Shown here: positions 5,989 to 24,430 of the stretch, piece after piece
Position numbering within the stretch: the stretch's first letter is position 1
Layout of the letters: every line of letters begins with the position of its first letter
Origin: Myxococcales bacterium
Lineage (GTDB): Bacteria > UBA10199 > 2-02-FULL-44-16 > JAAZCA01
Reading direction: 5' to 3'
Assembly: GCA_012513515.1 (NCBI GenBank)
Contig: JAAZCA010000014.1
Span: forward strand, 1-64,000
DNA: 64,000 bases
Notes under the pieces: model-generated
Told to the model about the DNA's origin: nothing
Databases searched by the model: none
Seen by the model: the letters and a program-made list of their open reading frames with translations, nothing else
Position numbers and translations under genes: made by a program

Positions 5989-6011
5989 TCGATTCTCATC
6001 GAGATTTTAAA

Positions 6012-7586
6012 ATGAAACTACTCTCCTCCTCACAGATGCGCTCGCTGGACGAAAGCGCTATAACCCAGCATCGGATTCCATCCATGGAACTCATGGAAAA
6101 CGCTGGAAGGGCGCTCGCCGATGTAGCCGCAACCTCTCGTCCTTCCCGGGCAGCAGTCGTATGCGGCAGAGGGAATAACGGCGGTGATGGGCTCGTGGCT
6201 GCGAGGTATCTGATCGGCATGGGGATCGATGTAGCCGTCCTGATTCTGGCCTCGCCTCAGGAGCTCTCCCCCGACGCTAGGGCGAACTGGGAGAGGCTGG
6301 TGAGGATATCCACGAGGGTCTTCCCCTGTACGGATGCTTCGTATTTGAGCAGTCATGCCTCGATCTTGGCGGAGGCCGATCTCATCGTGGACGCTATTTT
6401 CGGAACAGGTCTCAGGGACGAAGTGAAGGGGATATCCCTTCATGCCATAGAGATGATCAACGCGATGAAGGGGCGAAAGTCGCGCGTGGTATCTGCCGAT
6501 ATCCCGTCGGGGCTTTCATCCGATACCGGCATGCCTCTGGGAGGATCCGTCGTTGCTGATGATACGGTTACATTTGCTCTGCCAAAACTCGGCCTTTGTC
6601 TCGGGAGGGGGTTGGAGTATTGCGGAAATATTCATGTCGTCGATATAGGTATTCCGCCGGAGGAGGCGGAGAAGATCCCTTCTAAATATTCTCTAATAGT
6701 CGGGGATGATGTGCGTCGTTCGTTTTTACCGAGAAGAATGAATTCCCATAAGGGGACCTTCGGACATGTGGCGATATTCGCCGGATCGCGAGCCAAGATC
6801 GGAGCGGGGTATCTCTCCTCGAGGGCGGCGCTGAGAAGCGGTTCCGGCCTCGTCACCTATGCGATGCCGGAAAGCGCCTTCGCATTTTTCGATTCGAATT
6901 ATTCTGAGGTGATGTGCGAACCTCTTCCCGATAACGGTAAGGCATTTTTTTGTCATGAATCGCTGGATAAAGCGTTGCATCTTGCGCAGGACAAGAGCGC
7001 CGTCGCGATAGGTCCGGCGATCGGGACGGAGGAGGCGACGCGCGCTTTTCTCAACGCCTTTGTGAGGGATCTCAAAACCAGCTTGGTCATCGATGCCGAC
7101 GGGCTGAACCTGCTCGATCTCTCTTCCCTCAGGATGAGGGGGGCGGCGACCGTTTTGACGCCGCATCCGGGGGAGATGGCCAGGCTCACCAAAAGCGATA
7201 CCGGATTGGTCAATGCGAACAGGACGCAGGCGGCGATCTCTCTTGCGGCTTCCTGTGGGGCAATTGTGGTCCTCAAGGGGATGGGAACGGTAGTCGCTGC
7301 TCCCGATGGACGCTGTGCGATAAATCGAACCGGGAACTCAGGGATGGCATCGGCCGGAATGGGGGACGCACTCACAGGGATCATCCTCTCCCTTCTCGGT
7401 CAGGGGCTGGACCCATTCGATGCGGCCTGCGCCGGAGTTTTCGTTCATGGAATGGCCGGCGACTTTGCCGCTTCGGAAATAGGAGAGCGCGCGCTGATAA
7501 CTTCCGATTTGATAAAAAATCTTCCGCGTGTTTTTTCGAGCATCGAAACTCATAGTCATTCCCGCGGAATAGAACTGGATCCCTGA
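6012..7586 (+). CDS. nnr: bifunctional NAD(P)H-hydrate epimerase / ADP-dependent NAD(P)H-hydrate dehydratase
   Basis: Repairs hydrated NADH and NADPH. The N-terminal YjeF domain (about residues 1-215) epimerises the hydrate and shows CGRGNNGGDGLVAARYL and the DAIFGTGL block. The C-terminal ribokinase-like domain (about 225-510) dehydrates S-NAD(P)HX with ADP and shows the TPHPGEMARL and NSGMASAGMGDALTGI nucleotide-binding motifs. At 524 aa it is a standard fusion. ATG 6012 was chosen because MKLLSSSQMRSLD is how the family starts; an ATG at 5982 overlapping the acpS stop is an alternative. The last eight or so residues (SRGIELDP) are encoded by a dispersed repeat that runs across the stop codon, so the C-terminus looks repeat-derived. 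Confidence 0.94.
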   Translation: MKLLSSSQMRSLDESAITQHRIPSMELMENAGRALADVAATSRPSRAAVVCGRGNNGGDGLVAARYLIGMGIDVAVLILASPQELSPDARANWERLVRISTRVFPCTDASYLSSHASILAEADLIVDAIFGTGLRDEVKGISLHAIEMINAMKGRKSRVVSADIPSGLSSDTGMPLGGSVVADDTVTFALPKLGLCLGRGLEYCGNIHVVDIGIPPEEAEKIPSKYSLIVGDDVRRSFLPRRMNSHKGTFGHVAIFAGSRAKIGAGYLSSRAALRSGSGLVTYAMPESAFAFFDSNYSEVMCEPLPDNGKAFFCHESLDKALHLAQDKSAVAIGPAIGTEEATRAFLNAFVRDLKTSLVIDADGLNLLDLSSLRMRGAATVLTPHPGEMARLTKSDTGLVNANRTQAAISLAASCGAIVVLKGMGTVVAAPDGRCAINRTGNSGMASAGMGDALTGIILSLLGQGLDPFDAACAGVFVHGMAGDFAASEIGERALITSDLIKNLPRVFSSIETHSHSRGIELDP

Positions 7587-10841: not shown

Positions 10842-10855
10842 CCTAAAAAACAGGT

Positions 10856-10918
10856 TGAGGCTGAGGTTAAGGTTAAGAAAAATCATTTTCGCTCAACCTT
10901 AACCTAAACCTTAACCTT
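10856..10918. repeat. hexanucleotide-like inverted repeat after lysC
   Basis: GGTTAAGG-type tracts form an 11-bp inverted repeat: AGGTTAAGGTT (10864-10874) against AACCTTAACCT (10895-10905), followed by a further CTTAACCT-like copy. There is no U tract typical of a terminator. The unit recalls the TTAAGA tract at 17766-17826. Confidence 0.6.
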
Positions 10919-10968: not shown

Positions 10969-11042
10969 ATAGTGCGATAAAAGCATGTCATCCCCGAGTG
11001 ATGAGAAGGTTGTCATCCCCGAGTGGTGTAGTCGGGGATCCA
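10969..11042. repeat. repeat block left of the HTH/Doc cassette
   Basis: Bases 10969-11002 (ATAGTGCGATAAAAGCATGTCATCCCCGAGTGAT, given here as a 34-nt unit beginning ATAGTGCGATAAAAGC) recur with one mismatch at 11829-11862. Module A in reverse orientation follows at 11012-11042. Confidence 0.8.
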
Positions 11043-11083
11043 GCAATAAGCGTGACTCGATATAAAAATAAAGATATATTAAC

Positions 11084-11117
11084 TTGACTATGCAGGTTGA
11101 TATATATTAACCTGCAT
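11084..11117 (+). promoter_or_regulatory. palindromic operator overlapping a probable promoter of the HTH/Doc pair
   Basis: Arms ATGCAGGTT (11090-11098) and AACCTGCAT (11109-11117) are perfect inverted repeats around a central ATATATAT; the whole 28 bp is palindromic except for one base pair. A TTGACT -35-like hexamer lies at 11084-11089, with TATTAA-like -10 candidates inside the palindrome. The position just before the HTH gene suggests autoregulation. Confidence 0.65.
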
Positions 11118-11129
11118 AAAGAGGTTAAT

Positions 11130-11384
11130 ATGACCATCAAAAACTTCGTGTCGACGACGGAAGCCGCTAAAATCCTCGGAATAAGCACGGTAGCTGTCTT
11201 TAAAAAAATCAAGAATGGTCAGCTTCCAGCGCAGAGGGTCGGTAGAAATTATCTGATCGACATAAAAAACCTCGGTCTTAAAGATTCCAAGCCCAATAAA
11301 AAAACAAAAAAGCTGATCAGCGAAGCGGTGAAACGCGCGGTTTCTGAATATGGAGAAGCGTTGAAAAAACTGGGGGAAGAGTAG
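11130..11384 (+). CDS. excisionase/MerR-type HTH protein, probable antitoxin
   Basis: A small 84-aa protein. The N-terminal half contains a helix-turn-helix of the excisionase/MerR-like type: STTEAAKILGISTVAVFKK followed by the wing NGQLPAQRVGRNYLID. The C-terminal half is lysine-rich and predicted helical (about residues 50-84), the kind of segment that wraps a toxin. The start is ATG 11130 with GAGG at 11121. Its stop (TAG 11382-11384) overlaps the GTG start of the Doc gene by one base, so the two are translationally coupled. Together with the palindrome upstream this is the layout of a self-repressing toxin-antitoxin operon. The antitoxin role is inferred from position and partner; a plain regulator is the alternative. 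Confidence 0.75.
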   Translation: MTIKNFVSTTEAAKILGISTVAVFKKIKNGQLPAQRVGRNYLIDIKNLGLKDSKPNKKTKKLISEAVKRAVSEYGEALKKLGEE

Positions 11385-11803
11385 TGCATATACTTTCTCT
11401 TCAGGAAGTTCGCGATATAGCATTCGAGCTCGCCAGAGAGAGTATGGCATGGGACGAACCTATTCCGGATTTTGACACCCGATTTCCTAACGTCCTGGAA
11501 AGCTGTCTATCGGCACCTTTTCAAACCTTTGACAAAAAAAATCTTTACAAAGGGTTGCTCGAAAAGAGCGCAATACTTTTCTATCTCATGATAAAGAATC
11601 ATCCCTTTGCAAATGGCAACAAACGCATAGCGGTTACAGCTCTGCTTGTTTTCTTGGCTCTAAATGGGAAATGGTTGGAGGTAAGCAATCAGGAACTGTA
11701 TAATTTTGCGGTTTGGGTGGCAAGCAGCCCGCCGCAACTCATGAACGAAACCGCTGATGCTATAGAGGGTTTTCTGACAAAAAATATCGTCTGTTACAGT
11801 TGA
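11384..11803 (+). CDS. Fic/Doc family protein, probable toxin
   Basis: The 139-aa protein has the Doc fold signature. The catalytic motif HPFANGNKR (residues 73-81) follows a hydrophobic helix and precedes IAVTALLVFLALNG, as in death-on-curing proteins. P1 Doc phosphorylates EF-Tu and classical Fic enzymes AMPylate targets; this motif is intermediate, with GNKR as in Doc-like proteins and HPF as in Fic, and Asn where Fic usually has Asp or Glu. No inhibitory (S/T)xxxE(G/N) helix is evident, so inhibition would come from the upstream protein. The start is GTG 11384, supported by GGGGGAAGA and the one-base overlap. It acts in the cytoplasm if active. Confidence 0.82.
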   Translation: MHILSLQEVRDIAFELARESMAWDEPIPDFDTRFPNVLESCLSAPFQTFDKKNLYKGLLEKSAILFYLMIKNHPFANGNKRIAVTALLVFLALNGKWLEVSNQELYNFAVWVASSPPQLMNETADAIEGFLTKNIVCYS

Positions 11804-12248
11804 AGGACTGGCAAATTGACCATGGACCATAGTGCGATAAAAGCCTGTCATCCCCGAGTGATTTTATCGGGGATCCCGTAACGACCGTGACTGGTGGAAA
11901 AACAGAGGCTAGAGGTGAGATGTTAGAAACTAGAAAAAAACGGGCTCGTAAAAATCTCGTTTCTCACTTCTAGATTCTAGCTTCTTGATGTCGGTCGATG
12001 GTCAATTGTCGGGTTTAGGATGCATATCCCTGAAAAGAGCTGTTGGCATATTCGTTCAGATATTGTTAGAATGGGCGCCATCATTATTTAAGATTCGGGG
12101 TCCCTTTTATGCGTCAGAAAACGGATGCGCGCCTTATCATAACGAGAATGCCTGTTTCGATTTTTTCGCGTAATCACTTGAAATTATTCATTATTAGCTA
12201 AATCGGCTTTGGCATATAGGTTGCAACGTTATACGCCTGGAGGTTCTT
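11804..12248. other. 445-bp non-coding spacer
   Basis: Besides the repeat block at 11829-11876 it holds an imperfect inverted repeat at about 11904-11987 (AGAGGCTAGA against TCTAGCTTCT) and a CGATGGTCAATTGTC module C-like piece at 11997-12011. The last 200 bp before the large gene are A+T-rich and presumably contain its promoter; I see no convincing -35/-10 pair. A GGAGG lies just before ATG 12249. Confidence 0.5.
11829..11876. repeat. repeat block right of the HTH/Doc cassette
   Basis: Bases 11829-11862 repeat 10969-11002 with a single A/C difference and in the same orientation. They run into a module A copy (11847-11876, reverse orientation). The two blocks bound an 826-bp unit containing only the HTH and Doc genes. 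Confidence 0.8.
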
Positions 12249-15200
12249 ATGAAGAAAATAACCATACTAATTCTTTCCGTGATCGCGATCGCCGCGGCCT
12301 ATCCGCTTTTCGCCGCACAGGATTTTGGGTTTTCCGATCCGATACCGGTCGTCGGGGATAACCCAAATGATCCAGGCGGGACGAGTGCTGTGAGGATGTA
12401 TTTTTTCAATCATCCGGCATACACGGGGGACTCTAACTTCTCATCCTCATATGAGATCGATAAAAAAGTGAGCGATGTGATTGCAGTTCCGGGATCTGTT
12501 AGGATTGGAGAGCCTACTGCTATCTATTTACCCGCTTTTGGCTATGATAAGTCAAATATGCCGAAGTTAAAATCAACTTTAGGTTTAGGGCCTAGGAATT
12601 TGACTCTAAAGTTTGCTGAAGATAAGGAAATTACGCGTTATTTAGTGATGAGACCCTCCACCAAACCTAACCGACATGGAAGGTCAGTAGTGCTTGCAGA
12701 TATCAGAAAAACGAAGTCAGGCGAATACCAATCACTTTCACTCGGAAATGACCGCCAATATATCGGCTATGCAGGCAACTATATTGCCCCATACTTGAGC
12801 GCTTCAGGGAAGAGCGATCATCCGGCATTATTTAAAAGTGCCAGCTCTGCTTACTTCAAATGGTGTTCCAGATCCAATAACATGGGTATCTACTTCGAAT
12901 GTGCCGAAGAGGATACAATAGAAGAGATAGATGATATATTAGCGTACGACCTGGTTCCGCCTGTTGATGCCTCTTTGATGATAACCCCCGTTTTTGATCC
13001 ATTGCAGATACATGTGGGCGGTACAACTGCTGAACGTGGGTACTTGCTGAAAAACGGCCAAAGCACCAAGGGTTTTTATGCACTGAACGCAGCTACTACG
13101 GGTGCAGAACAACGAAAAGGCGAATTTAGAAAAGGCGAATTTAACTTTGCCTTAATTTCTCCTCTAAGTTTCTTTTACAAAGGCAACTACGACAAATATC
13201 GTTTTTTGGGGTACTCAAGTCTTCAGGACTACGTGATAGACATGACAGCGTTTCCTGAGAACAACTCATCACTAGGGGGACTTAATCCAGAAGATTGGTT
13301 CGACTTACTCTATAAAAAGGTTGACGAACCTAAGGACTTTAGCTCAATTTTTATGTTGTATTCTTTAGGTTTAATAAATCTTCCCTATGCCACAGCTAAC
13401 ACTGTTTCGTCCGAGACACGTACCGCAGAATCACTACAGACGATCAGCGATATAATAGCGCCTGCCTACATCACCAACCCATGGTTTCCGGTGGCGGCCA
13501 ACCCTGTGGCAGTTGTCAGGGATTCTAGCCAGGATGTAGCTACCCTTTATTACAACACACTCTTTAGTTGGAATGATTTTTTGCTTACCCCTTATGGGCG
13601 TCCGACAATTTTCAAGGACATGGATGTTCACAGAATGAAGGAACTCGTCGGTTTTAAAAAAACAGACGGATCCTTTACTTCTCTGGAAGACTGGTCTGGA
13701 TATGAGTTCTTTTATCCGAGCAAGGTGGTAGTGCCGGTGGTGATATGGGGAGTCGGTGATGTAGATATTGCGCAGTATGAGACATCCAATCCATCTTCGA
13801 TAATTACGCCGAAAACGGTAGCTCTCGTGGATTATGGCGCCTCCAGCCACCCTGGAATTTTCAATATGGCACATTTGCAGGACAGATCAAGAATTCCTAA
13901 AGACTATCTTCTTCTTCCCTCATCCATCGCTAACAATCGTGGCTTTGCCGGCATGATATACGTCATCGATAAAAATGACACGGAAAGCCAGCTTCATATG
14001 AAGAGTTGGAAATGGACCGAAGAACTAGGAAATGCTGACGATGTCAGAAAACGATTCGCCCTAAGGCCAAGAGAAGAAATATATACGGAAATTCCGTTCA
14101 GGGTTCCTTCCAAGGCTATTATGATTCCTCCCTATGATGGAGATCCAAACGTGGTCCCTTATCAACTTGCCACGGGAAACCTTGATGGAGATTCCTGTCA
14201 GGATATCGTGGTAAGTTATCGAAGCGCCGAGATGGTAACAGATATCCCAACTAAAAATTACACTGACTTTCACGTATCCTATCCAAACCTGTTCAGCATC
14301 ATATTCAGGAGCCCGCTCAAAGATGGTAGCTGCCCATTTTCCACTAGTGATAAATATTGGGATCCTGATGGCATTACTGTTGTTCACAAAACTTTGCCGA
14401 TTTTGGGTGGGAATACGGCCGGCAATGCCGCTGTTTCAGCGGTTTCAATAGGCAATTTCGTGGGAGAACTTGGAAATAAAAAAAGAAACGATATAGCCGT
14501 CGGAAACCTAAATCTCGAGAAGGACGCCGATGGCAATTTTGCCGGCTTTGTCTACGTCTTTGCGAATTCGGAAGATGACATTGATCGTACAACCGGAAAG
14601 CCGATCTTTAGTTCGCCAAACACAGGATATGACCCAACTACGGGCATTGGCGCCATCAGAATTAAGGCCGGTTTTAAATCTCATCCCGATAGCACAGATA
14701 AGTGGGGCGTGGGTTATTTGACGACTGACAGCGTTAGTGTTGAAGAATACGACAACATAGGTGCCATAAGCGGACTTCCGCTGATCCTCCCATCCCTGGC
14801 ATGTCCAGTAAGCGGCAGCGATACAACCAGGGCAGTTAGCGTCCATGAAGGAATGCTCGCCACCCTATATGCGAGAATGAGTGAAAGCATAGGATGTGAT
14901 GAGATAATATCAGCTAACGAAAATAATTTAAACCAAAGCTCATGCATGGACTCCACTCATAAAATGGAATACCCTTTTCAAAAATTCGGCATGCCATTGC
15001 CTCAGCGCTGTGCGCCCAGAGAAGGGGTATGTGGAGCTGGTCTTGTTGAAGAAGCAACTAATTACAAACTTCCGTTGTGGAGTGATATAGATTGCCCAAC
15101 CCAATGCTCAAAATGGGAAAATCTATGCTTACTTAGCCAGATGGACCAAAATCTTACGTCATCTTCAGAACCTTATATGGGGCTTGGCGGAAATTTTTGT

Positions 15201-17552
15201 ATGGTAAGAGATGACATTCATGGCCAACCTCTTAATCCAATGGCTTACCTTTGTATGCAGCAGCTAAATGCTGTGCGCGAGCCGGTGAATAAGCAAGACA
15301 GCTTTGCGTATTTAACCGACTTAGGCGGCATTGCCGATGGATCGCAGACGGAAAATGCATTCTATTATTTTGCGCCACTATTTCCGCCCGATGAAGAAAC
15401 AAGTCTTAGTGTATATTCTACACTTTTTACTGGAAATAATCGCTATGCGCCAATTACGTTTATGGACAATTTGGTCAATGCGAGCAATGCTTGGACGTTC
15501 TATCTGCCATCTACGGCAAGTGCCCAGTATAATCCCACTTACCCAGAGCGTGTGCAACCGTTCCCAAGTGGCGCAGCCGGATGTTCCCTCTTACCTCCTT
15601 CTCAGCAGAACGTAGTCAGCCAGGATAGAGAGATGTCCGTGCCATTTGCATATGATTTTCTCGATCCAAAGATGCCGCTGGAGGATAACCCCCTGTTCAA
15701 TAAAATAAGCCCTCCGAGCGGCTCTCAGGCCGAGACAACCTACTATCCCTCGACTATAGATTATAAAAAAATCCCCCTTATAAAGGGGCGTGAGATGCCG
15801 GGACCTAGGGAGATGACCGTGATACTGGGGGCCGCTGCGCCATGCGGCAATGGATCTGTAGATGTGTATCTTGGCGAGCAATGCGATCCTATTGCTGACG
15901 ACCCAAGTTCCTCATGTAAGAGCTTGGGATTTGGAGATTCGAGCTCATGCAATGCAAATTGCATGTGTAGCGGATGTGGTGATGGTACGGTGGATTCGAA
16001 TGCGGGAGAGGAATGCGATCTGGGTTCAGAGAATTTTTCAGATACCGATCGTGACGGATGTCGAACCGGATGCAAGTTGCACTCATGCGGTGATGAAGTG
16101 GTTGATTCCGACGAGCAGTGCGAAGGAAATCAGACGCAGGAAGGGTCACACTGCGATCCTGACAAATGCCAGTGGGTTTCAAATACCTGCGGAGATGGGA
16201 TCTTTTCACAGGACGCGACTTACAGCGAAGAATGTGATTACTCAGCCGGTGAAGAGGGCGCCTGCAAAACTGCTGGTTTTGAATGTAGCCAAAGTTGCAT
16301 ATGTGAACCTATTTGCGGCGACAATATCGTAGCAGGCGCTGAGGTTTGCGATGGTACCGCCGGCTGTCAGTCAGGATACACCTGTAACGAAGAATGCAGC
16401 GTATGCGAAAAGGTGCCGGTCTGCGGCGATGGAACTGTCGACCCCGGGGAAACCTGCGGAGAGCTGGGGCTTTCATGTGCTGAAGGTTTTGAATGCATCG
16501 CCCAAGGGCAACCTAATGCCTGCACATGTACGCCGGTGCCGGACTCGTTTTCATCCGACTGCGAGGTGAAGTGCGTAAGCTTCGCAGACGAAGCGGAGAA
16601 GCTCTATTACGATTCACTTAACGAGACCTATTTCCGCGCTCCATCGGGAAGAAAGGACGATTTCTTCTGCCCGAACAACTCCGTCATCCAGATGTCCTGC
16701 CTTGTCGCAGATGCTGCATTCAACGGATCCGTCGGCCCTTGGATGATGGTCCAGAGCAAGGGAATGGTGCTGCATGACATGGCCAAGATCACATCATCGG
16801 ATTTTCCGTTCGATGTCGTAGCCCCGCAGAGCCCGATTCGAATCGCTCCTCTCGCATCCTCCGCGAGCTCCGGCGGAAAAGCCGCTGCGGTCGTCCTCCC
16901 GAACCTGGCCTCGATTCGAGGGAATCTGGAGTTTTCAACCAGCGGAGTCTCGCCGATGGCGGCGACATCTGTGATGGAAAGCACGGCCGGCATAATGACG
17001 ATCAACAACATGATAGAGCATCGTGCAGTCGCTCTAATGCCTTCGAGTTCAAAATCGCAGTCGAGGGATGCTGGCAAGGCTGCTGCGGCCCCTGCCGTAC
17101 ATTACACGAGGCTTCGGGCCTATCCGGAACCGACCCACACTACGATAGAGAGCTGGCCGAAGGATCTCGATCCTGAGAAGCTCTATGTCGAGAATCGGCT
17201 GAAACCGGATTATGTCAGGAGCATAATTGAAACTCGTAAAAAGGAAGGGGCAAAGGGAACCCGCGATATCGCCCTGGGAATTTCTGACGATGTCGGCATA
17301 TACGAGATGTCGATATTGCAGGAGACCTATGGTGAAAAGAGCAGCGGCACTACGGCGGTCAACTATTCATTCTATGCTGGGCCCGTATCTTCGATCTCCG
17401 AAGGGGGCGCAGGATGCGGAAAGTGCTCGATATCCGAGAATTCTGGCTTCAATGCCAGGGCCGCCACACCTATATTGCTGGCAGTGCTGTTGTCGGCACT
17501 CGCCCTTGGCGCAGTAAGGGTGAGGGTTAGCGTGAGGTCGAAAAGGAAGTAG
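12249..17552 (+). CDS. very large secreted protein with Cys-rich DUF4215-like repeats and a C-terminal anchor
   Basis: The protein has 1767 aa. Residues 1-23 form a signal peptide ending LFAA. Residues about 640-755 contain two Asp-rich segments (GNLDGDSCQDIVV; IGNFVGELGNKKRNDIAVG) resembling FG-GAP/integrin-alpha repeats. Residues about 1197-1437 hold at least six Cys-rich repeats of the CGDGTVD..GE.CD type (DUF4215-like, common in Myxococcota and other deltaproteobacterial lineages). The tail has a GCGKC motif (about 1720), then a hydrophobic helix (about 1739-1757) and a basic end (VRSKRK), the architecture of proteobacterial C-terminal sorting tails such as MYXO-CTERM. Export and surface anchoring are likely; a ligand or enzymatic role is not visible. 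GGAGG precedes ATG 12249. The central third has lower GC and rarer codons than the C-terminal part. Confidence 0.85.
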   Translation: MKKITILILSVIAIAAAYPLFAAQDFGFSDPIPVVGDNPNDPGGTSAVRMYFFNHPAYTGDSNFSSSYEIDKKVSDVIAVPGSVRIGEPTAIYLPAFGYDKSNMPKLKSTLGLGPRNLTLKFAEDKEITRYLVMRPSTKPNRHGRSVVLADIRKTKSGEYQSLSLGNDRQYIGYAGNYIAPYLSASGKSDHPALFKSASSAYFKWCSRSNNMGIYFECAEEDTIEEIDDILAYDLVPPVDASLMITPVFDPLQIHVGGTTAERGYLLKNGQSTKGFYALNAATTGAEQRKGEFRKGEFNFALISPLSFFYKGNYDKYRFLGYSSLQDYVIDMTAFPENNSSLGGLNPEDWFDLLYKKVDEPKDFSSIFMLYSLGLINLPYATANTVSSETRTAESLQTISDIIAPAYITNPWFPVAANPVAVVRDSSQDVATLYYNTLFSWNDFLLTPYGRPTIFKDMDVHRMKELVGFKKTDGSFTSLEDWSGYEFFYPSKVVVPVVIWGVGDVDIAQYETSNPSSIITPKTVALVDYGASSHPGIFNMAHLQDRSRIPKDYLLLPSSIANNRGFAGMIYVIDKNDTESQLHMKSWKWTEELGNADDVRKRFALRPREEIYTEIPFRVPSKAIMIPPYDGDPNVVPYQLATGNLDGDSCQDIVVSYRSAEMVTDIPTKNYTDFHVSYPNLFSIIFRSPLKDGSCPFSTSDKYWDPDGITVVHKTLPILGGNTAGNAAVSAVSIGNFVGELGNKKRNDIAVGNLNLEKDADGNFAGFVYVFANSEDDIDRTTGKPIFSSPNTGYDPTTGIGAIRIKAGFKSHPDSTDKWGVGYLTTDSVSVEEYDNIGAISGLPLILPSLACPVSGSDTTRAVSVHEGMLATLYARMSESIGCDEIISANENNLNQSSCMDSTHKMEYPFQKFGMPLPQRCAPREGVCGAGLVEEATNYKLPLWSDIDCPTQCSKWENLCLLSQMDQNLTSSSEPYMGLGGNFCMVRDDIHGQPLNPMAYLCMQQLNAVREPVNKQDSFAYLTDLGGIADGSQTENAFYYFAPLFPPDEETSLSVYSTLFTGNNRYAPITFMDNLVNASNAWTFYLPSTASAQYNPTYPERVQPFPSGAAGCSLLPPSQQNVVSQDREMSVPFAYDFLDPKMPLEDNPLFNKISPPSGSQAETTYYPSTIDYKKIPLIKGREMPGPREMTVILGAAAPCGNGSVDVYLGEQCDPIADDPSSSCKSLGFGDSSSCNANCMCSGCGDGTVDSNAGEECDLGSENFSDTDRDGCRTGCKLHSCGDEVVDSDEQCEGNQTQEGSHCDPDKCQWVSNTCGDGIFSQDATYSEECDYSAGEEGACKTAGFECSQSCICEPICGDNIVAGAEVCDGTAGCQSGYTCNEECSVCEKVPVCGDGTVDPGETCGELGLSCAEGFECIAQGQPNACTCTPVPDSFSSDCEVKCVSFADEAEKLYYDSLNETYFRAPSGRKDDFFCPNNSVIQMSCLVADAAFNGSVGPWMMVQSKGMVLHDMAKITSSDFPFDVVAPQSPIRIAPLASSASSGGKAAAVVLPNLASIRGNLEFSTSGVSPMAATSVMESTAGIMTINNMIEHRAVALMPSSSKSQSRDAGKAAAAPAVHYTRLRAYPEPTHTTIESWPKDLDPEKLYVENRLKPDYVRSIIETRKKEGAKGTRDIALGISDDVGIYEMSILQETYGEKSSGTTAVNYSFYAGPVSSISEGGAGCGKCSISENSGFNARAATPILLAVLLSALALGAVRVRVSVRSKRK

Positions 17553-17576
17553 GGCGTTAAAATAGAAGTATCTTCT

Positions 17577-17624
17577 TCGGGGGAGATGTAATCGCTTCGT
17601 GCGGCCGTGTCCCCCGAGTTTTTT
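17577..17624 (+). terminator. probable intrinsic terminator of the large secreted protein gene
   Basis: Stem TCGGGGGA (17577-17584) pairs with TCCCCCGA (17610-17617) around a 25-nt loop that itself contains CGC/GCG, followed by GTTTTTT (17618-17624). It lies 25 nt after the stop codon. Confidence 0.7.
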
Positions 17625-17640
17625 CAGGCATTCTTAAAAT

Positions 17641-17690
17641 CGACCATGGACAATTGGCCTCTGTTTTTTCCAGTCACGGCTGTTGCTGGA
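17641..17690. repeat. dispersed intergenic repeat, module C
   Basis: CGACCATGGACAATTGGCCT...CAGTCACGGCTGTT closely matches 20255-20302 and 32002-32049 (CGACCATGGACAATTGACCT...CAGTCACGCTTGTT). Confidence 0.75.
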
Positions 17691-17695
17691 GGGGG

Positions 17696-17800
17696 TCGAA
17701 TCCTGATCGCTGATCCCTGATCTTTGATCAGCATTTTGTAAGATTAGCTTATATTCGAAAACATCCTTATTAAGATTAAGATCAGGATCAAGATTAAGAT
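17696..17800. repeat. 105-bp direct repeat, left copy
   Basis: Begins TCGAATCCTGATCGCTGATC and ends AGATTAAGAT; the same 105 bp occurs at 18603-18707 with two mismatches and in the same orientation. The pair flanks the two divergent four-helix-bundle genes. Confidence 0.9.
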
Positions 17801-17826
17801 GAAGATTAAGATTAAGAGGAAGATTA
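17766..17826. repeat. AAGATT hexanucleotide tract
   Basis: About ten imperfect AAGATT/AAGATC/AAGAGG units in a row. They create a false Asn-Leu-rich reading frame on the minus strand. Part of the tract lies in the 105-bp direct repeat. Confidence 0.75.
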
Positions 17827-17827
17827 A

Positions 17828-18178
17828 TCAAAATATCGGATTAAATTTTTTCATATTGATGATCATAGCATAAGCCCTGCGAAGCAGCGTTTTTAGTTCT
17901 TCCTGATACTTGGCGGATATATATCCATAAGCCGATAGGATATCGATGATCGAGGCGACCTCGGCTATTGAGCCTGGGGAGATATCGAAAAACCGATTTC
18001 TGTCTTTTTGGGACTTTCTGCCATTTCCTTCCGCTAAGTTAAGCAGGGTGCTGGAAAGGGCTCGTTTAAGCTGATCCTCCAGATAGTAATTTCCCCTTGG
18101 AAGAGATCCTATTAGCTCTGGCATTCTTTTTGCGACCGAAAGCAAAAGTCCGTAGCAGTTAAGCCGCTGATGATTCAT
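17828..18178 (-). CDS. four-helix bundle protein (23S rRNA-IVS/S23-like family)
   Basis: A 116-aa all-helical protein with the family's hallmark core: YYLEDQLKRALSSTLLNLAEG then NGRKSQKDRNRFFDIS and GSIAEVASIIDIL. Members of this family (TIGR02436-type) are found inside 23S rRNA intervening sequences, alone in intergenic regions, or as Avd-like helpers of diversity-generating reverse transcriptases. No rRNA or reverse transcriptase is present here. ATG 18178 has GGAGGAGG six bases upstream. It is divergent from, and clearly paralogous to, the gene at 18264-18599 (long identical blocks VAKRMPELIGS, DQLKRALSS, AEGNGRKS). Biochemical function is unknown. Confidence 0.8.
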   Translation of the reverse strand: MNHQRLNCYGLLLSVAKRMPELIGSLPRGNYYLEDQLKRALSSTLLNLAEGNGRKSQKDRNRFFDISPGSIAEVASIIDILSAYGYISAKYQEELKTLLRRAYAMIINMKKFNPIF

Positions 18179-18193
18179 TTAAAACCTCCTCCT

Positions 18194-18251
18194 TGTGATT
18201 TTAATTTCAAAACCTCCCGACCGGCTGAGAGGTTTTGAAATTAAAATCACA
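18194..18251. repeat. perfect 23-bp-arm palindrome between the divergent four-helix-bundle genes
   Basis: Left arm 18194-18216 begins TGTGATTTTAATTTC and ends AAAACCTC; right arm 18229-18251 is its exact reverse complement; the loop is 12 bp (18217-18228). Ribosome-binding sites of the two genes lie just outside the arms (18185-18192 minus, 18255-18259 plus). It could be an operator, an mRNA hairpin in both leaders, or a recombination scar. Confidence 0.9.
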
Positions 18252-18263
18252 GATGGAGGGGTT

Positions 18264-18599
18264 ATGTTCGGACATCAGCGGCTTTACTGCTACAATCTTT
18301 GCCTTGGGGTGGCAAAAAGGATGCCAGAGCTAATCGGATCATGGCCATCGGGGTCAGGATATCTCGTGGATCAGCTTAAACGGGCCCTTTCGAGCGTTAT
18401 ACTGAATATCGCTGAAGGAAATGGTAGAAAGTCGATAAAGGAGAGAAGACGGTTTTTCGATATCGCGATAGGTTCTGCTGCCGAAGTATCCTCTATCTTC
18501 GATGTCGCCAGAGCTTATGGATATATCACCGAGCCAGTCTATGAGGAGCTTCAGTCGGAGCTGCTTCAGGTGGTGAGGATGCTATACAAGCTGAAGTAA
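18264..18599 (+). CDS. four-helix bundle protein (23S rRNA-IVS/S23-like family), second copy
   Basis: A 111-aa paralogue of the divergent gene at 17828-18178, sharing VAKRMPELIGS, YLVDQLKRALSSVILNIAEG and NGRKS, with a conservative C-terminal half (FFDIAIGSAAEVSSIFDVARAYGYI). The start is ATG 18264 with GGAGGGG just upstream; the frame is open further upstream but that part runs through the palindrome and has no ribosome-binding site. The stop is three bases before the right copy of the 105-bp direct repeat. The two proteins may form a hetero-oligomeric bundle, or the pair may be an inverted gene duplication. No catalytic residues are recognisable. Confidence 0.8.
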   Translation: MFGHQRLYCYNLCLGVAKRMPELIGSWPSGSGYLVDQLKRALSSVILNIAEGNGRKSIKERRRFFDIAIGSAAEVSSIFDVARAYGYITEPVYEELQSELLQVVRMLYKLK

Positions 18600-18602
18600 T
18601 CC

Positions 18603-18707
18603 TCGAATCCTGATCCCTAATCCCTGATCTTTGATCAGCATTTTGTAAGATTAGCTTATATTCGAAAACATCCTTATTAAGATTAAGATCAGGATCAAGA
18701 TTAAGAT
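18603..18707. repeat. 105-bp direct repeat, right copy
   Basis: Same sequence and orientation as 17696-17800, with two substitutions near the left end (CGCTGAT against CCCTAAT). Confidence 0.9.
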
Positions 18708-18727
18708 TCGGGGATGACACCATGAAT

Positions 18728-18779
18728 GTCATTCCCGCATGCTGTAAGCCGCCGCTAACGCGGGGCAAACGGGAATCCC
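18728..18779. repeat. dispersed intergenic repeat, module B
   Basis: GTCATTCCCGCATGCTGTAAG followed by CCGCCGCTAACGCGGGGCAAACGGGAATCCC, nearly the same as 7616-7666. Confidence 0.8.
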
Positions 18780-18845
18780 TTGCCAATCGTTCAGCAGTTA
18801 CGAGTCACCAGTCACAGCTTTTTACCCAATAATCTCTTGTAATCA

Positions 18846-18873
18846 TTGACTTCTTTCTTTTTCTCAATAAGAT
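18846..18873 (+). promoter_or_regulatory. probable sigma-70-type promoter of the OmpA-family gene
   Basis: TTGACT (18846-18851), 16-bp spacer, TAAGAT (18868-18873), 37 bp before the start codon. Confidence 0.55.
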
Positions 18874-18910
18874 CACCGCAAATTCAAGAAGTTAAAGCGG
18901 GGGAGGAAAA

Positions 18911-20233
18911 ATGGCGAAAGTACGAGTCGTGTTGGTTCTTGCAGTGGCGGTTTTTGCGGCCGTCCTCTTTATCTCAAAAGCGGTCGAAGCGGGACACAGC
19001 CCGGATGTGGTGACCTTCAACCCGGTCACGGATGGCGGAAAGTACAACGTCATCCACCAGTCGAAAACCTTGCCACAGTGGGGATTCAACGTCGGAATGA
19101 CCTTCGATTATGCCTACGAGCCGTATGAAAAAGCCACCGCCGCCGGAACGAGGATAATCGGGATAGTTGACGACCTCATGATGACCAACGTCCACGGGGC
19201 TATCGGCTGGACCGACTGGTGGTCGATGGGCGCAAATCTTCCTGTCGCGATTTGGCAAACCTGGTTTGATCCAAACCTTCCCATTGCCACCGTGCAAAAG
19301 GAGAACAAATACGGAAAACTCGGCGATGCGCGCCTCGAGATGAAATTTCGCCTTCTCGACATCGAAAGACACCACGTCGGCTTGGCGCTGGTTCCCTATA
19401 TGTATTTTCCAACCGGACATTGGCAGACCTATCTCGGCAACGATATGTGGAGCCCCGGCGGAACTCTGGTTTTCGATGCCGATATAAAGAACCGCGTCTT
19501 TCTCTCTCTGAACGTCGGTTACAGGATGTATAAATATGTCCGTTACGATACGACAAACCCGAATGCGTTTCTTGATGACACCCTCAGCATGGGGGGAGGG
19601 ATAAATGTCAGAATCAATGACACCTGGGCAATCACCGGTGAGGCATGGAGCGAGTCAGTCATAAAATCCCTCTTCAAGAACCAGCTTCAGAATCCCTCGG
19701 AGTTTTTGGTCGGGACCAAAATCACTCCGCAAGGTGCGGCGAAGGGGTTGGGAATCACAGTCGGCGGAGGAAGGGCGATCACTACCGGCATAGGCGATCC
19801 TGATTTTCGCGTCCTGGTCGGCGTAAACTATCGCTACGATCGTGAGCCGCCGCCGCCGCCGCCAGTTGAAGTTGAAGCAGCGGTAGAAGAAAAGATCATC
19901 ATCACCCAGAAGATTCACTTCGAGTTCAACAAGGCCGTCATAAGGCCAGTTTCTTATCCAATTCTCGACGATGTCGTGATGTTGCTGCAGCAGAATCCGC
20001 AGCTGGGGCTTATCCGTGTTGAAGGCCACACCGACTGGATCGGGAACGATGCCTACAACCAGCGGCTGTCGGAAAAGAGGGCGAACTCCGTCCGCGAGTA
20101 TCTGATCAGCAAGGGGATAGAGCCGTACAGGCTTCAGGCTGTCGGATATGGCGAGTCCAGGCCGATCGCCGACAACAATACCACAAAGGGGCGCGCCCGC
20201 AATAGGCGAACGGAATTTACGGTCGTGCAGTAA
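18911..20233 (+). CDS. OmpA-family outer-membrane protein
   Basis: A 440-aa exported protein. Residues 1-27 form a signal peptide ending AVEAG. Residues about 30-310 look like an outer-membrane beta-barrel: alternating aromatic strands such as GFNVGMTFDYAYEP and VFLSLNVGYRMYKY. A poly-proline linker (about 313-318) leads to an OmpA C-terminal peptidoglycan-binding domain with IHFEFNKAVIRP, VEGHTDWIGND, LSEKRANSVREYL and GYGESRPIADN. This anchors the outer membrane to the cell wall and may form a pore. ATG 18911 follows GGGGGAGG. Monocistronic by context: it has its own promoter upstream and repeats on both sides. Confidence 0.9.
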   Translation: MAKVRVVLVLAVAVFAAVLFISKAVEAGHSPDVVTFNPVTDGGKYNVIHQSKTLPQWGFNVGMTFDYAYEPYEKATAAGTRIIGIVDDLMMTNVHGAIGWTDWWSMGANLPVAIWQTWFDPNLPIATVQKENKYGKLGDARLEMKFRLLDIERHHVGLALVPYMYFPTGHWQTYLGNDMWSPGGTLVFDADIKNRVFLSLNVGYRMYKYVRYDTTNPNAFLDDTLSMGGGINVRINDTWAITGEAWSESVIKSLFKNQLQNPSEFLVGTKITPQGAAKGLGITVGGGRAITTGIGDPDFRVLVGVNYRYDREPPPPPPVEVEAAVEEKIIITQKIHFEFNKAVIRPVSYPILDDVVMLLQQNPQLGLIRVEGHTDWIGNDAYNQRLSEKRANSVREYLISKGIEPYRLQAVGYGESRPIADNNTTKGRARNRRTEFTVVQ

Positions 20234-20252
20234 ATTTCAAGAAGCAAACTAA

Positions 20253-20403
20253 CTTCGACCATGGACAATTGACCTCTGTTTTTCCCAGTCACGCTTGTTA
20301 CGGGATCCCCGATAGAACCATTCGGGGATGACGACCTTTTCGACACTCGGGGATGACAATCACGCCGTCATTCCCGCGGTTTTAAGCCGCCGCTAACGCG
20401 GGG
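20253..20403. repeat. composite of modules C, A and B
   Basis: Module C at 20253-20302, module A at 20303-20332, a second half A (CTCGGGGATGAC, 20346-20357) and module B at 20367-20403. The order C-A-B shows that the modules travel together. Confidence 0.8.
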
Positions 20404-20459
20404 TTCCGACTGTTTCTTAACCTTGATTTTCACTGAAAAATCGATTCTACCTGGCCAGG

Positions 20460-22601
20460 ATGGCTAATAAATTCACAGAACGGGCTCCACTTGCGACCCC
20501 TGTGCAGTACGTAAAAGGGGTTGGTCCGGTCTTGGCAGGGAAGCTCCTCAAGATGGGGATCTTGACCGTTGGAGATCTCCTCGCGGTAACTCCCATCAGA
20601 TATCTTGACCGCAGGAATCTCATCAAGATTTCAGAACTCACTCCCGGGAAGGATCGAACGATCGCCGGCGAGATAGTGAGAAGCAATATAGCTTTTATGG
20701 GACGGCGTAAAAAAAGAATTTATGAACTGGTTGTCGATGACGGCACCGGCAAGGTCTCCGCGAAATTTTTTCATTTCAGGCAGAGCTATTTCGAAGATCG
20801 TTACAGGGTTGGAAGCCGGATTCTGCTATCCGGAGAGGCGAGCGCATTTTCGCAGCGCCTGCAATTCATCCATCCGGAAACGGAAATTCTGGGGGAAGGG
20901 GATGATGCCGCCTCGATAGGAAGAATAATCCCGGTTTATCCCCTGACCGAGGGACTCTACCAAAAGACCATGCGCAAGATAATCAGAAATGCATGGGACA
21001 GATTCAACGGGCACATAAAGCCGATCTTCCCAGAAAAATTTACCGAAAAATTCAATTTGGCCGATCCTTGGAAGTGCCTTCAGGAGATGCATTTCCCGTC
21101 GAACGATCTCGACCCGGAGCTGCTTACCATAGGGCGTTCGATAGCGCACAGGACGCTTATATTCGACGAGTTTTTCTTTCTGGAACTTGGGCTGGCGCTT
21201 CGAAGAAAAAATCATTCGGTGAAACCGGGGATCGCGTTTCCAAGGAATGATGAAATTCACAGCAAATTCATATCATCTCTGCCTTTCGAACTTACGGCGG
21301 CTCAGAAGAGGGTGACAGACGAAATATTCAACGACATGAGTTCCCCAAGGCCGATGAACCGGCTCCTGCAGGGGGACGTCGGCAGCGGCAAGACGGTCGT
21401 GGCCCTCATTGCCGCCCTCAGGGCGATATCGGCGGGATATCAGGCTGCGATAATGGCCCCAACAGAAATTCTGGCGGAACAGCATTTTTTGACGATAGAT
21501 CGCTTCGCTAAAAACGGCGGATTCAACTATGCGCTTTTGACCAGCTCGGTGAAGGGCTTCGAGCGGGAAAAAATTATCGCAGGCCTCGCAGACGGATCGA
21601 TATCGCTTGCGGTTGGAACGCATGCGCTGATTCAGGAAGGGGTTAAATTTCAAAAGCTTGGCTTTATAACGGTGGACGAGCAGCACAGATTCGGCGTCAT
21701 GCAGCGCGCTGAGATCAGGGATAAGGGTTCTCCTGAAAACGCCGATCGCGGCTGGCCGGACATACTCATAATGACTGCGACTCCTATACCGAGGACGCTG
21801 GCGATGACTCTCTACGGAGACCTCGATGTTTCGGTGATAGATGAACTTCCAAAGGGAAGAAAGCCGATTGTTACTCGCTTATACGAGGAGCATAATCGAA
21901 AGAAGCTCTATGACGGTATGCTGCATGAATTGAAAAGCGGCAGACAGGTGTACGTAGTCTATCCTCTTATAGAGGAGAGCGAAAAGGTCGATCTGAAAAA
22001 TGCGACCGACATGTCAAAGGAAATTGCGCGCATCTTCGAACCGCAGTTTAAAGTTGAGCTGCTCCACGGGAGGATGGCTGGCGAGCGCAAAGAGGAGATC
22101 ATGCGCGCATTCAAGGAAAATCGCGTTCATATTCTTGTGGCGACTTCGGTCGTAGAAGTTGGCGTCGATGTTCCCAACGCATCGGTGATGGTGATCGAAC
22201 ACGCCGAGCGCTTCGGCCTTTCGCAGCTCCATCAGCTGCGCGGTCGCGTCGGTCGCAGCGAGCACCAGTCCTATTGCATATTGATGACCAATTACAGGAG
22301 AACCGAGGAGTCGGGGACCAGGCTCGCCGTTATGCTTGAGACGACCGACGGCTTCAAAATCGCGGAGGAGGATCTCGCTATAAGGGGGCCCGGGGAATTT
22401 CTCGGCACGAGACAGTCCGGACTTCCACCATTTAGAATTGCAAACCTTGCGCGCGATGTTGGAATACTGTCGCAGGCGAGGCAGGCGGCTTTCGATTTGA
22501 TAGCCGCCGACCCCAAACTTTCAGCTGCGGAAAATTTGCGGATAAAAGAAGTTCTGCTGTCGCGCTGGGCTGGAAGGATGAATCTGGCGGATATATCGTG
22601 A
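20460..22601 (+). CDS. recG: ATP-dependent DNA helicase RecG
   Basis: Superfamily 2 helicase that regresses stalled replication forks and processes Holliday junctions. Seen: N-terminal wedge/OB region with VQYVKGVGPVLAGKL, Walker A GDVGSGKT (residues 305-312), APTEILAEQH, the DEQHRFGVMQR box, TATPIPRTLAM, and the C-terminal LRGRVGRSEHQSYC and GPGEFLGTRQSGLP blocks. The protein has 713 aa, slightly longer than the E. coli one. Ribosome-binding signals before ATG 20460 are poor (CCAGG abuts the start), so the start is the least certain part. It is followed by a repeat-rich spacer and is not visibly in an operon. Confidence 0.95.
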   Translation: MANKFTERAPLATPVQYVKGVGPVLAGKLLKMGILTVGDLLAVTPIRYLDRRNLIKISELTPGKDRTIAGEIVRSNIAFMGRRKKRIYELVVDDGTGKVSAKFFHFRQSYFEDRYRVGSRILLSGEASAFSQRLQFIHPETEILGEGDDAASIGRIIPVYPLTEGLYQKTMRKIIRNAWDRFNGHIKPIFPEKFTEKFNLADPWKCLQEMHFPSNDLDPELLTIGRSIAHRTLIFDEFFFLELGLALRRKNHSVKPGIAFPRNDEIHSKFISSLPFELTAAQKRVTDEIFNDMSSPRPMNRLLQGDVGSGKTVVALIAALRAISAGYQAAIMAPTEILAEQHFLTIDRFAKNGGFNYALLTSSVKGFEREKIIAGLADGSISLAVGTHALIQEGVKFQKLGFITVDEQHRFGVMQRAEIRDKGSPENADRGWPDILIMTATPIPRTLAMTLYGDLDVSVIDELPKGRKPIVTRLYEEHNRKKLYDGMLHELKSGRQVYVVYPLIEESEKVDLKNATDMSKEIARIFEPQFKVELLHGRMAGERKEEIMRAFKENRVHILVATSVVEVGVDVPNASVMVIEHAERFGLSQLHQLRGRVGRSEHQSYCILMTNYRRTEESGTRLAVMLETTDGFKIAEEDLAIRGPGEFLGTRQSGLPPFRIANLARDVGILSQARQAAFDLIAADPKLSAAENLRIKEVLLSRWAGRMNLADIS

Positions 22602-22606
22602 CAGCC

Positions 22607-22718
22607 GTGACTCGTAACTGGTGAACGGTTGGAACCCCGCGGTAGCGGCGGCTTAATGCCGCGGGAATGACATTCATAGTGTCATCCCCGAATGACGAGA
22701 AGGTCGTCATCCCCAGTG
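22607..22718. repeat. repeat block left of the ATPase cassette
   Basis: Bases 22607-22635 (a 29-nt unit starting GTGACTCGTAACTGG) recur exactly at 24389-24417. An inverted module B follows at 22631-22671, then half A units (GTCATCCCCGAATG, AGAAGGTCGTCATCCCC) to 22718. Confidence 0.8.
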
Positions 22719-22839
22719 TAAACAGAGATCTTGTTGTAACATGCTGAAATTAAACGATAAATCTGCATTATAAGCTTGTTATATGGTATGATATGTTAGT
22801 AATTGATTTTTTTACAGTATTATAATATAGTAGTGATCT

Positions 22840-24300
22840 ATGAGCGAACAAGTTCAAATCTATCTTAATAACCAAATATCTAAAATACCTGCGTTTTTAG
22901 ACGCTTATCTCCATGATCGCAGCGGTAAATTATATGCAAAACGCCATCTTTTTGACCGTGTAATGAGCCGTGTGAACAATTTTCTACAAAATCGTTCTGA
23001 GGTGAGATTTATTGGCATTTCAGGGCTTAGAGGGGTTGGCAAGACCACCTTGCTCGCTCAACTGTCTAAAGAAATTATCTCAAAATACCCAAAGGATTTT
23101 CTTTATTTGACGATGGATGAGGTGACAGGAGTCCTTCAGAGCGATTTGTTGGAAGTTCTAACGGAATATGAAAAAATTATAGGTTGTTCTTTCGAAGAAA
23201 TTAAACGGCCTGTTTTTATTTTTATTGATGAAGTTCATTTTGATGAAAAATGGACGCTGGCATTGAAAACTATTTACGATAAATCTAAACATATATTTGT
23301 TATATGTACAGGCTCGTCCGCGCTTTCTTTGCGCGCGACTCCAGATCTTGCAAGAAGAATCTTATTTGAAAAACTTTATCCGATGAAATTTTCAGAATAT
23401 ATTTTTCTTAAAAATCACGACGATATTGTTTTAAATCAAAAAAAGTTAAATGGTAGTGTGTCAAACGACTTGAGCGCAAAGATTGTTCAGGCTTTGTTGT
23501 ACAGTCCAAGCGGAAAATCTTGTTATGAATCTTTTTTGAAGCTTGAAAAGGATATTAAAGAGTTTTGGTATGGGTTGAACGCTTTGGAAATGGAAAGATT
23601 CCTAAAATTTGGCAATCTGCCTTTTGCATTAAAAGAAACAGAGGAATTCGATTGTTTAAAATTGATTTTAGAAATTATCGACAGGATTGTTGAAAAGGAT
23701 ATTCCAGCACTAGGAAAGTTTAAAATTGAAACTTTGTCTCGAGCAAAAAATATTCTTTTAATGTTGGCTTCCGGTGACGAAACTAGTTTTACGAGTTTTG
23801 CCAAAAGTTTAAATAATATTTCAATAATCACTCTTCAAGATTTGTTTGATGCGTTTGAAAAAGCTGAGATTTTGTTTCGTGTTTATCCCTATGGTTCGGC
23901 TTTTAAAAAGGTGAGAAAGCCGTCCAAGTATCTCTTTATGTCTCCATCCCTTCGTTATGCATTGCTTAGTGTCGTAGAGGGGCGCAATGCTTATTTAACC
24001 CATAAAGGAAAATATTTGGAAGATGTTGTGTGTATGACATTAATTTCAAGCGCTGAGGATATTATTGTGAAATCCCTTTTTTACGATAGCTCAAAAGGTG
24101 GCGCTGATTTTATTATAAAAATTGGAGATAAAAAAATTGTATTAGAGGTCGGTTTTGGGGAAAAAGGTAATGATCAAATTTTATATACGATGAGAAGGAC
24201 GAAGGCGAATTATGGGGTTTTAATATCAGAAACAGAATTAAATTTTGATAGTGAGAACAATATCGTAAAAATACCGCTGCAAACGTTTTTAAGCATATAA
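22840..24300 (+). CDS. A+T-rich AAA ATPase with DUF4143/DUF234-like C-terminus
   Basis: A 486-aa P-loop ATPase: Walker A GLRGVGKTT (residues 62-70), Walker B VFIFIDEVH (about 126-134) and sensor-like CTGSSALSL. Such stand-alone ATPases often carry a C-terminal restriction-endonuclease-like fold; here GGADFIIKIGDKKIVLEVG resembles that core (D and E present) but has Gly where the active-site Lys is expected, so nuclease activity is doubtful. Base composition and codon use are strikingly A+T-rich compared with recG and lipA on either side, and 29-bp direct repeats bound it, all suggesting horizontal acquisition. A TATAAT box lies at 22821-22826. The cellular role is unknown; related proteins are suspected to be defence or toxin-like. 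Confidence 0.75.
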   Translation: MSEQVQIYLNNQISKIPAFLDAYLHDRSGKLYAKRHLFDRVMSRVNNFLQNRSEVRFIGISGLRGVGKTTLLAQLSKEIISKYPKDFLYLTMDEVTGVLQSDLLEVLTEYEKIIGCSFEEIKRPVFIFIDEVHFDEKWTLALKTIYDKSKHIFVICTGSSALSLRATPDLARRILFEKLYPMKFSEYIFLKNHDDIVLNQKKLNGSVSNDLSAKIVQALLYSPSGKSCYESFLKLEKDIKEFWYGLNALEMERFLKFGNLPFALKETEEFDCLKLILEIIDRIVEKDIPALGKFKIETLSRAKNILLMLASGDETSFTSFAKSLNNISIITLQDLFDAFEKAEILFRVYPYGSAFKKVRKPSKYLFMSPSLRYALLSVVEGRNAYLTHKGKYLEDVVCMTLISSAEDIIVKSLFYDSSKGGADFIIKIGDKKIVLEVGFGEKGNDQILYTMRRTKANYGVLISETELNFDSENNIVKIPLQTFLSI

Positions 24301-24328
24301 TTTGAACAGCCGTGACTGGTGAGACAAG

Positions 24329-24430
24329 AAGGTCGTCATCACCGAATGGTTCTATCGGGGATCCCGCAACGACCGTGACTTGTGACTAGTGACTCGTAAC
24401 TGGTGAACGGTTGGAACGGGATCCCGCAAC
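24329..24430. repeat. repeat block right of the ATPase cassette
   Basis: Contains a module A variant (24337-24365, GTCATCACCGAATGG...CGGGGATCC), the 29-nt unit at 24389-24417 identical to 22607-22635, and GGGATCCCGCAAC pieces. It abuts the start of lipA. Confidence 0.8.

Follow-up and report, generated by a model that had tools for sequence, protein, structure and literature searches.

Short-period repeat arrays around S23/IVP genes between protein-coding genes point to a family of small mobile elements related to rRNA intervening sequences

The DNA analyzed here (the window) is a stretch of 64,000 nucleotides at the start of contig JAAZCA010000014.1 (C14) of a Myxococcales bacterium (assembly GCA_012513515.1; 1.79 Mb, 99% complete, 42 contigs). 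Three sets of accessory genes in the window lie between direct repeats, namely a helix-turn-helix (HTH)/Doc gene pair, a pair of genes for four-helix-bundle proteins of the S23/IVP family (PF05635), and an ATPase gene. The three repeat pairs had been described in an initial annotation, and both direct reading and a repeat search agree with their positions. The S23 pair is the main subject of this work. In the following, contigs of the same genome are labeled C, other genomes G, and stretches fetched for comparison L. The relatives used for comparison all belong to other genera, the nearest being members of the same family with about 70% DNA identity.

S23 gene A (17828-18178, minus strand; Pfam 1.4e-18, TIGR02436 1.2e-17) is divergent from S23 gene B (18264-18599, plus strand; 2.2e-22 and 2.8e-22), and both pass the family cut-offs, with 67.5 and 79.7 bits for Pfam (cut-off 33.8) and 64 and 79 bits for TIGR02436 (cut-off 24). 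The two gene regions are 74% identical as inverted repeats and are separated by a central palindrome (18183-18264), which folds into a long hairpin (−45.6 kcal/mol), is conserved in the copies on C9, C30 and C4, and tends to be a point where assemblies break. The whole arrangement forms a dispersed element of about 0.87 kb (17793-18675), of which the genome contains about four copies in unrelated contexts with 87-89% identity to that of the window. The others are located at C30:23651-24528, at C9:84434-85276 and, split by contig ends, at C4:1-468 and C29:2-330. In total, 12-13 matches to PF05635 were obtained in the genome. All S23 copies of the window have protein-coding genes as neighbors, lying between them or at their ends, and none is located in an rRNA gene. 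PF05635 was the only family found by profile search in the cassette, which contains no Y1 (HUH) transposase. We also considered a diversity-generating retroelement with an Avd-type four-helix bundle and rejected it because no match to reverse transcriptase (RVT_1, PF00078) was obtained in the genome.

In the lineage of the window, the element thus consists of two S23 genes placed head to head with a long palindrome between them and is present in several copies. Such pairs also occur in other genera and families, with several copies each in G003 (four and a partial one), G004 and G042, an uncultured delta-proteobacterial metagenome-assembled genome with seven S23-pair loci, with a single copy in G001, and in the more distant G053. 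The genome of the window contains another dispersed intergenic element, consisting of two consecutive long hairpins of about 180 and 230 nt (pair down to −238 kcal/mol), whose outer ends adjoin two of the S23-pair copies (C30 and C4/C29). Two copies of this double hairpin bracket an RfaH/NusG-like gene on C9 (L048:4485-4900 and 5830-6240), and more are present at C39:32632-32859, C19:151975-152175 and C19:164944-165144; an Rfam search with the two hairpin elements on C9 gave chance-level matches only.

The S23 pair of the window is bordered by degenerate tandem arrays of short period, one of 6 bp at its left edge (ATTAAG/ATCAGG..., 17769-17823, array score 31.4) and one of 7 bp downstream of gene B (CTAATCC/CTGATC, 18609-18636, score 12.2). 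The direct repeats around the pair are two copies of a 105-bp module, termed M (17696-17800 and 18603-18707; 98% identity with two mismatches, same orientation), the left one containing a further 7-bp-period array (TGATCCC, 17703-17729, score 13.4). The two copies are mutual best matches, a solo copy on C29 reaches 98.9% identity over 91 bp, and about 17 further solo copies are found in the genome. Module M folds as an array, a loop and a complementary array without any S23 gene, and so do two hairpins located after lysC (AGGTTA ... TAACCT, 10852-10918, detected by an array scan; −30.9 kcal/mol) and after doc (CTAGAAG ... CTTCTAG, 11905-11990; −32.1 kcal/mol). S23-less array hairpins of these three types are scattered in the spacers and build the 105-bp repeats as well as the array words of the other two repeat pairs, which have periods of 8 bp (34-bp repeats) and 7 bp (29-bp repeats). 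A solo M may also represent a circular junction or a "solo LTR" (long terminal repeat) left after recombination across the S23 pair; we prefer to regard it as an S23-less element because its own sequence folds into an array hairpin.

Short-period arrays beside S23 genes were first seen in the repeat output for loci of other phyla. We compared S23 with Fic genes by scoring the periodicity in the 300 bp beside the gene at 29 loci from 29 genomes, with the Fic loci taken from the same set (threshold of at least 14). Downstream of the genes, the median period score was 15.8 for S23, with 16 of 29 loci reaching the threshold, versus 6.4 for Fic (4 of 29), while shuffled sequences reached a maximum of about 11. 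In 40 S23-centred stretches of up to 14 kb each, taken largely from the same genomes, arrays were 9.4 times as dense in the roughly 300 bp next to S23 as in the rest of the stretch. An array was present at 25 of these 40 loci, with a best period of 7 in 18 cases and of 8 in five. Of the spacers, 17 of the 41 adjacent to S23 and 13 of the remaining 175 contained an array (p = 5e-7, and p = 5e-5 after matching for length). The arrays upstream and downstream of the gene were also mutually inverted, exceeding the 99th percentile of cross-locus pairs at 22 of 39 S23 loci, compared to none of 27 Fic loci.

Plasmid records with an S23 match came mostly from cyanobacteria, many of them heterocystous, and the query used gave no match in phage records. 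Arrays were found near 13 of 14 plasmid S23 loci and were visibly inverted in most of them, as exemplified by Nostoc edaphicum with GGGAACAGGGAACAGGGAACAGAG upstream and TCTGTTCCCTGTTCCCTGTTCCC downstream of S23. As in the window, the plasmid copies examined occupy gaps between protein-coding genes or the ends of such genes, and none of them is in an rRNA gene. The sites include CRISPR-cas operons of cyanobacterial plasmids (L262:1889-4053, L268:1813-4061 and L271:1-4491): in two cases, an S23 element separates cas6 from cas4 in a type I-D system, and in one case, cas10 from cmr3 in a type III-B system.

Three loci in Nostoc-type plasmids allowed occupied and empty sites to be compared. At a Nostoc locus of three genes, two plasmids carry no insert. 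Two others contain an S23 element where gene 2 ends, and in yet another one, gene 3 is followed by a different S23 element, with arrays inside every insert. A gene that is intact in three relatives has, in Aulosira, an S23 element in place of about 15 bp close to its 3' end. At a locus with a TraM gene, the site is empty in one plasmid and occupied by an S23 element in two, and a further plasmid contains an array and its complementary array without S23 at this position; the two S23 copies are 99.4% identical over 481 bp, compared to 82.3% and 93.3% in the flanks. The elements are situated at or near a gene end, usually in operon direction. Elements of Aulosira and Nostoc from unrelated sites are 81% similar over 418 bp, and this similarity is bounded by the arrays.

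Arrays are also frequent away from S23 genes if the genome contains the family. In the stretches of S23-bearing genomes, arrays distant from the S23 gene amounted to 11.6 per 100 kb. Independent Fic-centred stretches of such genomes, in which no S23 gene was found, still showed 6.8 arrays per 100 kb, with at least one array in 12 of 20, versus 0.6 per 100 kb and 2 of 20 stretches in genomes lacking S23 (Fisher p = 0.002). The comparison within the class gave 9.4 versus 0.7 arrays per 100 kb. The common S23-less arrays in S23-bearing genomes, together with the Nostoc plasmid which has an S23-less array pair where its relatives have S23, could indicate that the arrays came first, either as a preferred target or as products of replication slippage, and that S23 landed in pre-existing heptamer arrays rather than carrying them along. 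However, the empty sites of C057, pC052_A/B, Microchaete and Aulosira plasmid 1 are truly devoid of an array, what homologous elements have in common at unrelated sites is S23 and both arrays and nothing outside, and genomes without S23 are nearly free of arrays. We regard an arrays-first origin as improbable.

Our favored explanation, which we consider reasonably probable, is that the S23 cassette represents a family of small mobile elements composed of a degenerate array of 6-8-bp units, one or more S23/IVP genes and a complementary array. We read the element as a relative of the intervening sequences (IVS) of 23S rRNA that resides between protein-coding genes. Several observations weigh against this interpretation. 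No recognisable transposase, integrase or reverse transcriptase is part of the S23 element. Arrays are not universal, as 15 of the 40 S23 loci have none above the threshold, and in the plasmid set, inversion exceeds its own 99th percentile in 5 of 14 loci only, because arrays of related composition raise the baseline of the cross-pairs. The copy in the window has arrays of different periods on its left (6) and right (7), and its terminal complementarity is weaker than that of the cyanobacterial elements. Target duplication is irregular, with a possible TTCTA/CTA of 3-5 bp at best at one Nostoc site and the 15-bp replacement elsewhere. The identity contrast of 99.4% versus 82-93% at the TraM locus could also stem from gene conversion. 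The evidence from occupied and empty sites comes from Nostoc-type plasmids, with no such pair for the lineage of the window, where all relatives belong to other genera, and the array statistics of genomes with and without S23 are correlative and not tree-corrected.

If S23 cassettes are mobile elements of this kind, the complementary arrays would pair in the RNA whenever the element is transcribed together with its host operon. The paired insert may then be processed as an rRNA intervening sequence is, by RNase III, so that it would do little harm and be tolerated in operons. S23 is proposed to act in trans on the RNA or DNA of the arrays, copying or inserting the element, and the S23-less hairpins may be non-autonomous derivatives, as repetitive extragenic palindromic (REP) sequences are to RAYT genes. 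Near-identical modules in neighboring spacers could recombine and thereby duplicate, delete or capture genes, which would create direct-repeat flanks at some accessory genes. A still wider scheme, which we put forward tentatively and consider rather doubtful, would make S23/IVP a general trans-acting factor. The 6-8-bp, mostly heptameric, arrays of cyanobacteria, Bacteroidota, delta-proteobacteria and others would be its non-autonomous members, made or multiplied by S23, probably via an RNA hairpin intermediate, and the rRNA intervening sequences would be the special case of elements which landed in rRNA genes.

The closest known counterparts are the 23S rRNA IVS of Coxiella and Leptospira, which contain an S23p/IVP open reading frame (ORF) within terminal complementary stem sequences and are regarded as selfish; in Coxiella, GACAGAT heptamers in strain-variable number precede the S23p ORF (PMC4990558). 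The elements described here share the protein family and the location of the ORF within complementary termini (22 of 39 loci and the plasmid elements; weakly in the window copy). They differ by residing in many copies among protein-coding genes, between them or at their ends, and not in rRNA, by arms that are long degenerate tandem arrays, by abundant S23-less derivatives, and by the head-to-head pair in the lineage of the window. By analogy, the Coxiella IVS would fit as an rRNA-dwelling member of the S23 element family. A second parallel is given by the RAYT/REP-REPIN systems, in which a single- or low-copy gene lies between short palindromic repeats, which also occur dispersed on their own, mostly away from promoters (PMC3116915). 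Arrays likewise flank S23, are dispersed without it and are depleted at promoters, whereas S23 contains no Y1/HUH domain, and the repeat units are 6-8-bp tandem arrays whose letters vary between genomes and between elements within a genome.

Intergenic arrays of degenerate heptamers have been described as short tandemly repeated repetitive (STRR) sequences in cyanobacteria, as GGGAATC arrays in Xanthomonas and Nostoc, and as TAACTGA arrays in Beggiatoaceae, and those of Xanthomonas often form convergent pairs (PMC4692102, PMC4679880). The S23 arrays resemble them in being intergenic, degenerate and mostly heptameric. These reports name no associated gene and make no mention of S23; one considers no mechanism evident, and the other reports no connection with mobile elements (PMC4692102, PMC4679880). 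The nearest solved S23 structure is XCC0516 (2GSC), judging by its name from Xanthomonas campestris. We found no paper in the open-access literature tying S23 genes outside rRNA to short-period arrays, and the novelty of this link is provisional because subscription journals were outside the search. The link may explain the origin of heptamer tracts in many bacterial genomes. Both the arrays and the S23 protein have been known for decades, each without an explanation, and connecting them offers the arrays a candidate cause and S23 a candidate job, both of which become testable. The rRNA intervening sequences would then be a small part of a broader family which inserts between operon genes, including those of CRISPR-cas operons.

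The remaining repeat pairs of the window surround other types of genes. The 34-bp repeats (10969-11002 and 11829-11862, plus strand, one mismatch), which consist of the end of an 8-bp-period array and one half of a CGGGGATGAC palindrome, enclose genes for an HTH_17/excisionase-like DNA-binding protein (11130-11384, plus strand; profile match) and a Fic/Doc toxin-like protein (11384-11803, plus strand; PF02661 1.2e-11, TIGR01550 3.7e-17). An AAA_14/DUF4143 ATPase gene of 34% GC (22840-24300, plus strand; profile match) is located between recG and lipA and is flanked by two identical 29-bp words with a 7-bp-period GTGACTC array (22607-22635 and 24389-24417, plus strand), the right one inside an array of the same period (24375-24411). 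Genome-wide comparisons of spacers and modules covered 1.30 of the 1.79 Mb, for which genes and spacers were called. The 34-bp copies are mutual best matches with one further copy on C40, and the 29-bp word recurs identically at unrelated loci on C5 and C39. Because the ATPase word is dispersed, the three pairs are not one phenomenon, and we rejected a single mechanism behind all of them.

Modules were present in 117 of 668 spacers, with enrichment between convergent and depletion between divergent genes; therefore, flanking by some module copy is common, as the initial annotation had cautioned. This distribution fits an ordinary explanation, namely dispersed repeats similar to REP or NIME sequences, with accessory genes among them by chance and gene conversion homogenizing neighboring spacers. 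The neisserial NIME/dRS3 sequences and minimal mobile elements provide a precedent, with mosaic spacers, palindromes of the type ATTCCCGC...GCGGGAAT, and accessory genes exchanged between fixed core genes; to our knowledge, their description includes neither an S23 gene nor short-period arrays. Core genes are also placed between module pairs, including tsf (55-bp repeats), frr-pyrH-tsf (110-bp repeats, longer span), oppC and others, and the spacers around the tsf operon are locally related in sequence. For the S23 cassette, the ordinary explanation is contradicted by the S23-specific inverted arrays across phyla and by the occupied and empty sites, both of which it leaves unexplained. It also conflicts with an enrichment of flanking repeats around low-GC genes. 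We examined groups of one to three genes enclosed by successive spacers with modules, 49 intervals in all, for near-identical repeats of at least 28 bp in the same orientation. These were found at 13 of the 49 intervals, that is, at 5 of 6 low-GC versus 8 of 43 other intervals (Fisher p = 0.003). Chance placement among ordinary repeats is possible in our view, but we do not expect it to be the answer.

The same enrichment supports part of the initial interpretation, according to which the spacer modules are slots for homologous or site-specific recombination, with the S23 pair, HTH/Doc and ATPase as their cargo. Direct repeats surround each of the three free-standing Fic/Doc genes in the genome, including a Fic gene on C6 with repeats of about 250 bp on both sides and one on C31 (57422-58961), which is apparently a recent insertion with a long duplication: the peptidase gene upstream of it has its 3' end duplicated within the 138-bp repeat (three mismatches). 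In all 12 relatives with both genes in the fetched locus, all of other genera, recG and lipA are side by side without the ATPase. The S23 pair of the more distant genome G053 is also found between direct repeats of about 100-117 bp (L189:915-1015 and 1882-1998) together with an added segment, the right copy abutting a coding-looking end of the neighboring gene. However, module pairs also surround core genes, which is half of what the initial annotation had named as a refutation of slots. The ATPase is flanked by a word that is dispersed, no direct repeats were found when the flanks of the S23-pair copies on C9 and C30 were scanned, and the empty Nostoc sites hold no waiting array copy. The slot interpretation is only partly supported, and as a general explanation we judge it unlikely. 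For the S23 pair, the better evidence is for an element moving with its own arrays and not for passive cargo. The direct repeats around accessory genes in such genomes may derive from S23-type elements, not from dedicated cargo slots.

A fourth Fic gene of the genome, which is not flanked by direct repeats, is located between hsdM- and hsdR-like genes of a type I restriction-modification operon (C9:75991-82649). Three Fic genes of different genomes (L203, L208 and L217) are followed immediately downstream by similar 12-bp tandem repeats, GTTGACGCAAAA / GGTTGGCGATTA, which are of another type than the S23 arrays. Finally, the window codes for a large protein of 1767 amino acids (12249-17552), for which no family matching over its length was found and which shows a signal peptide, cysteine-rich DUF4215-like segments and a C-terminal hydrophobic anchor.

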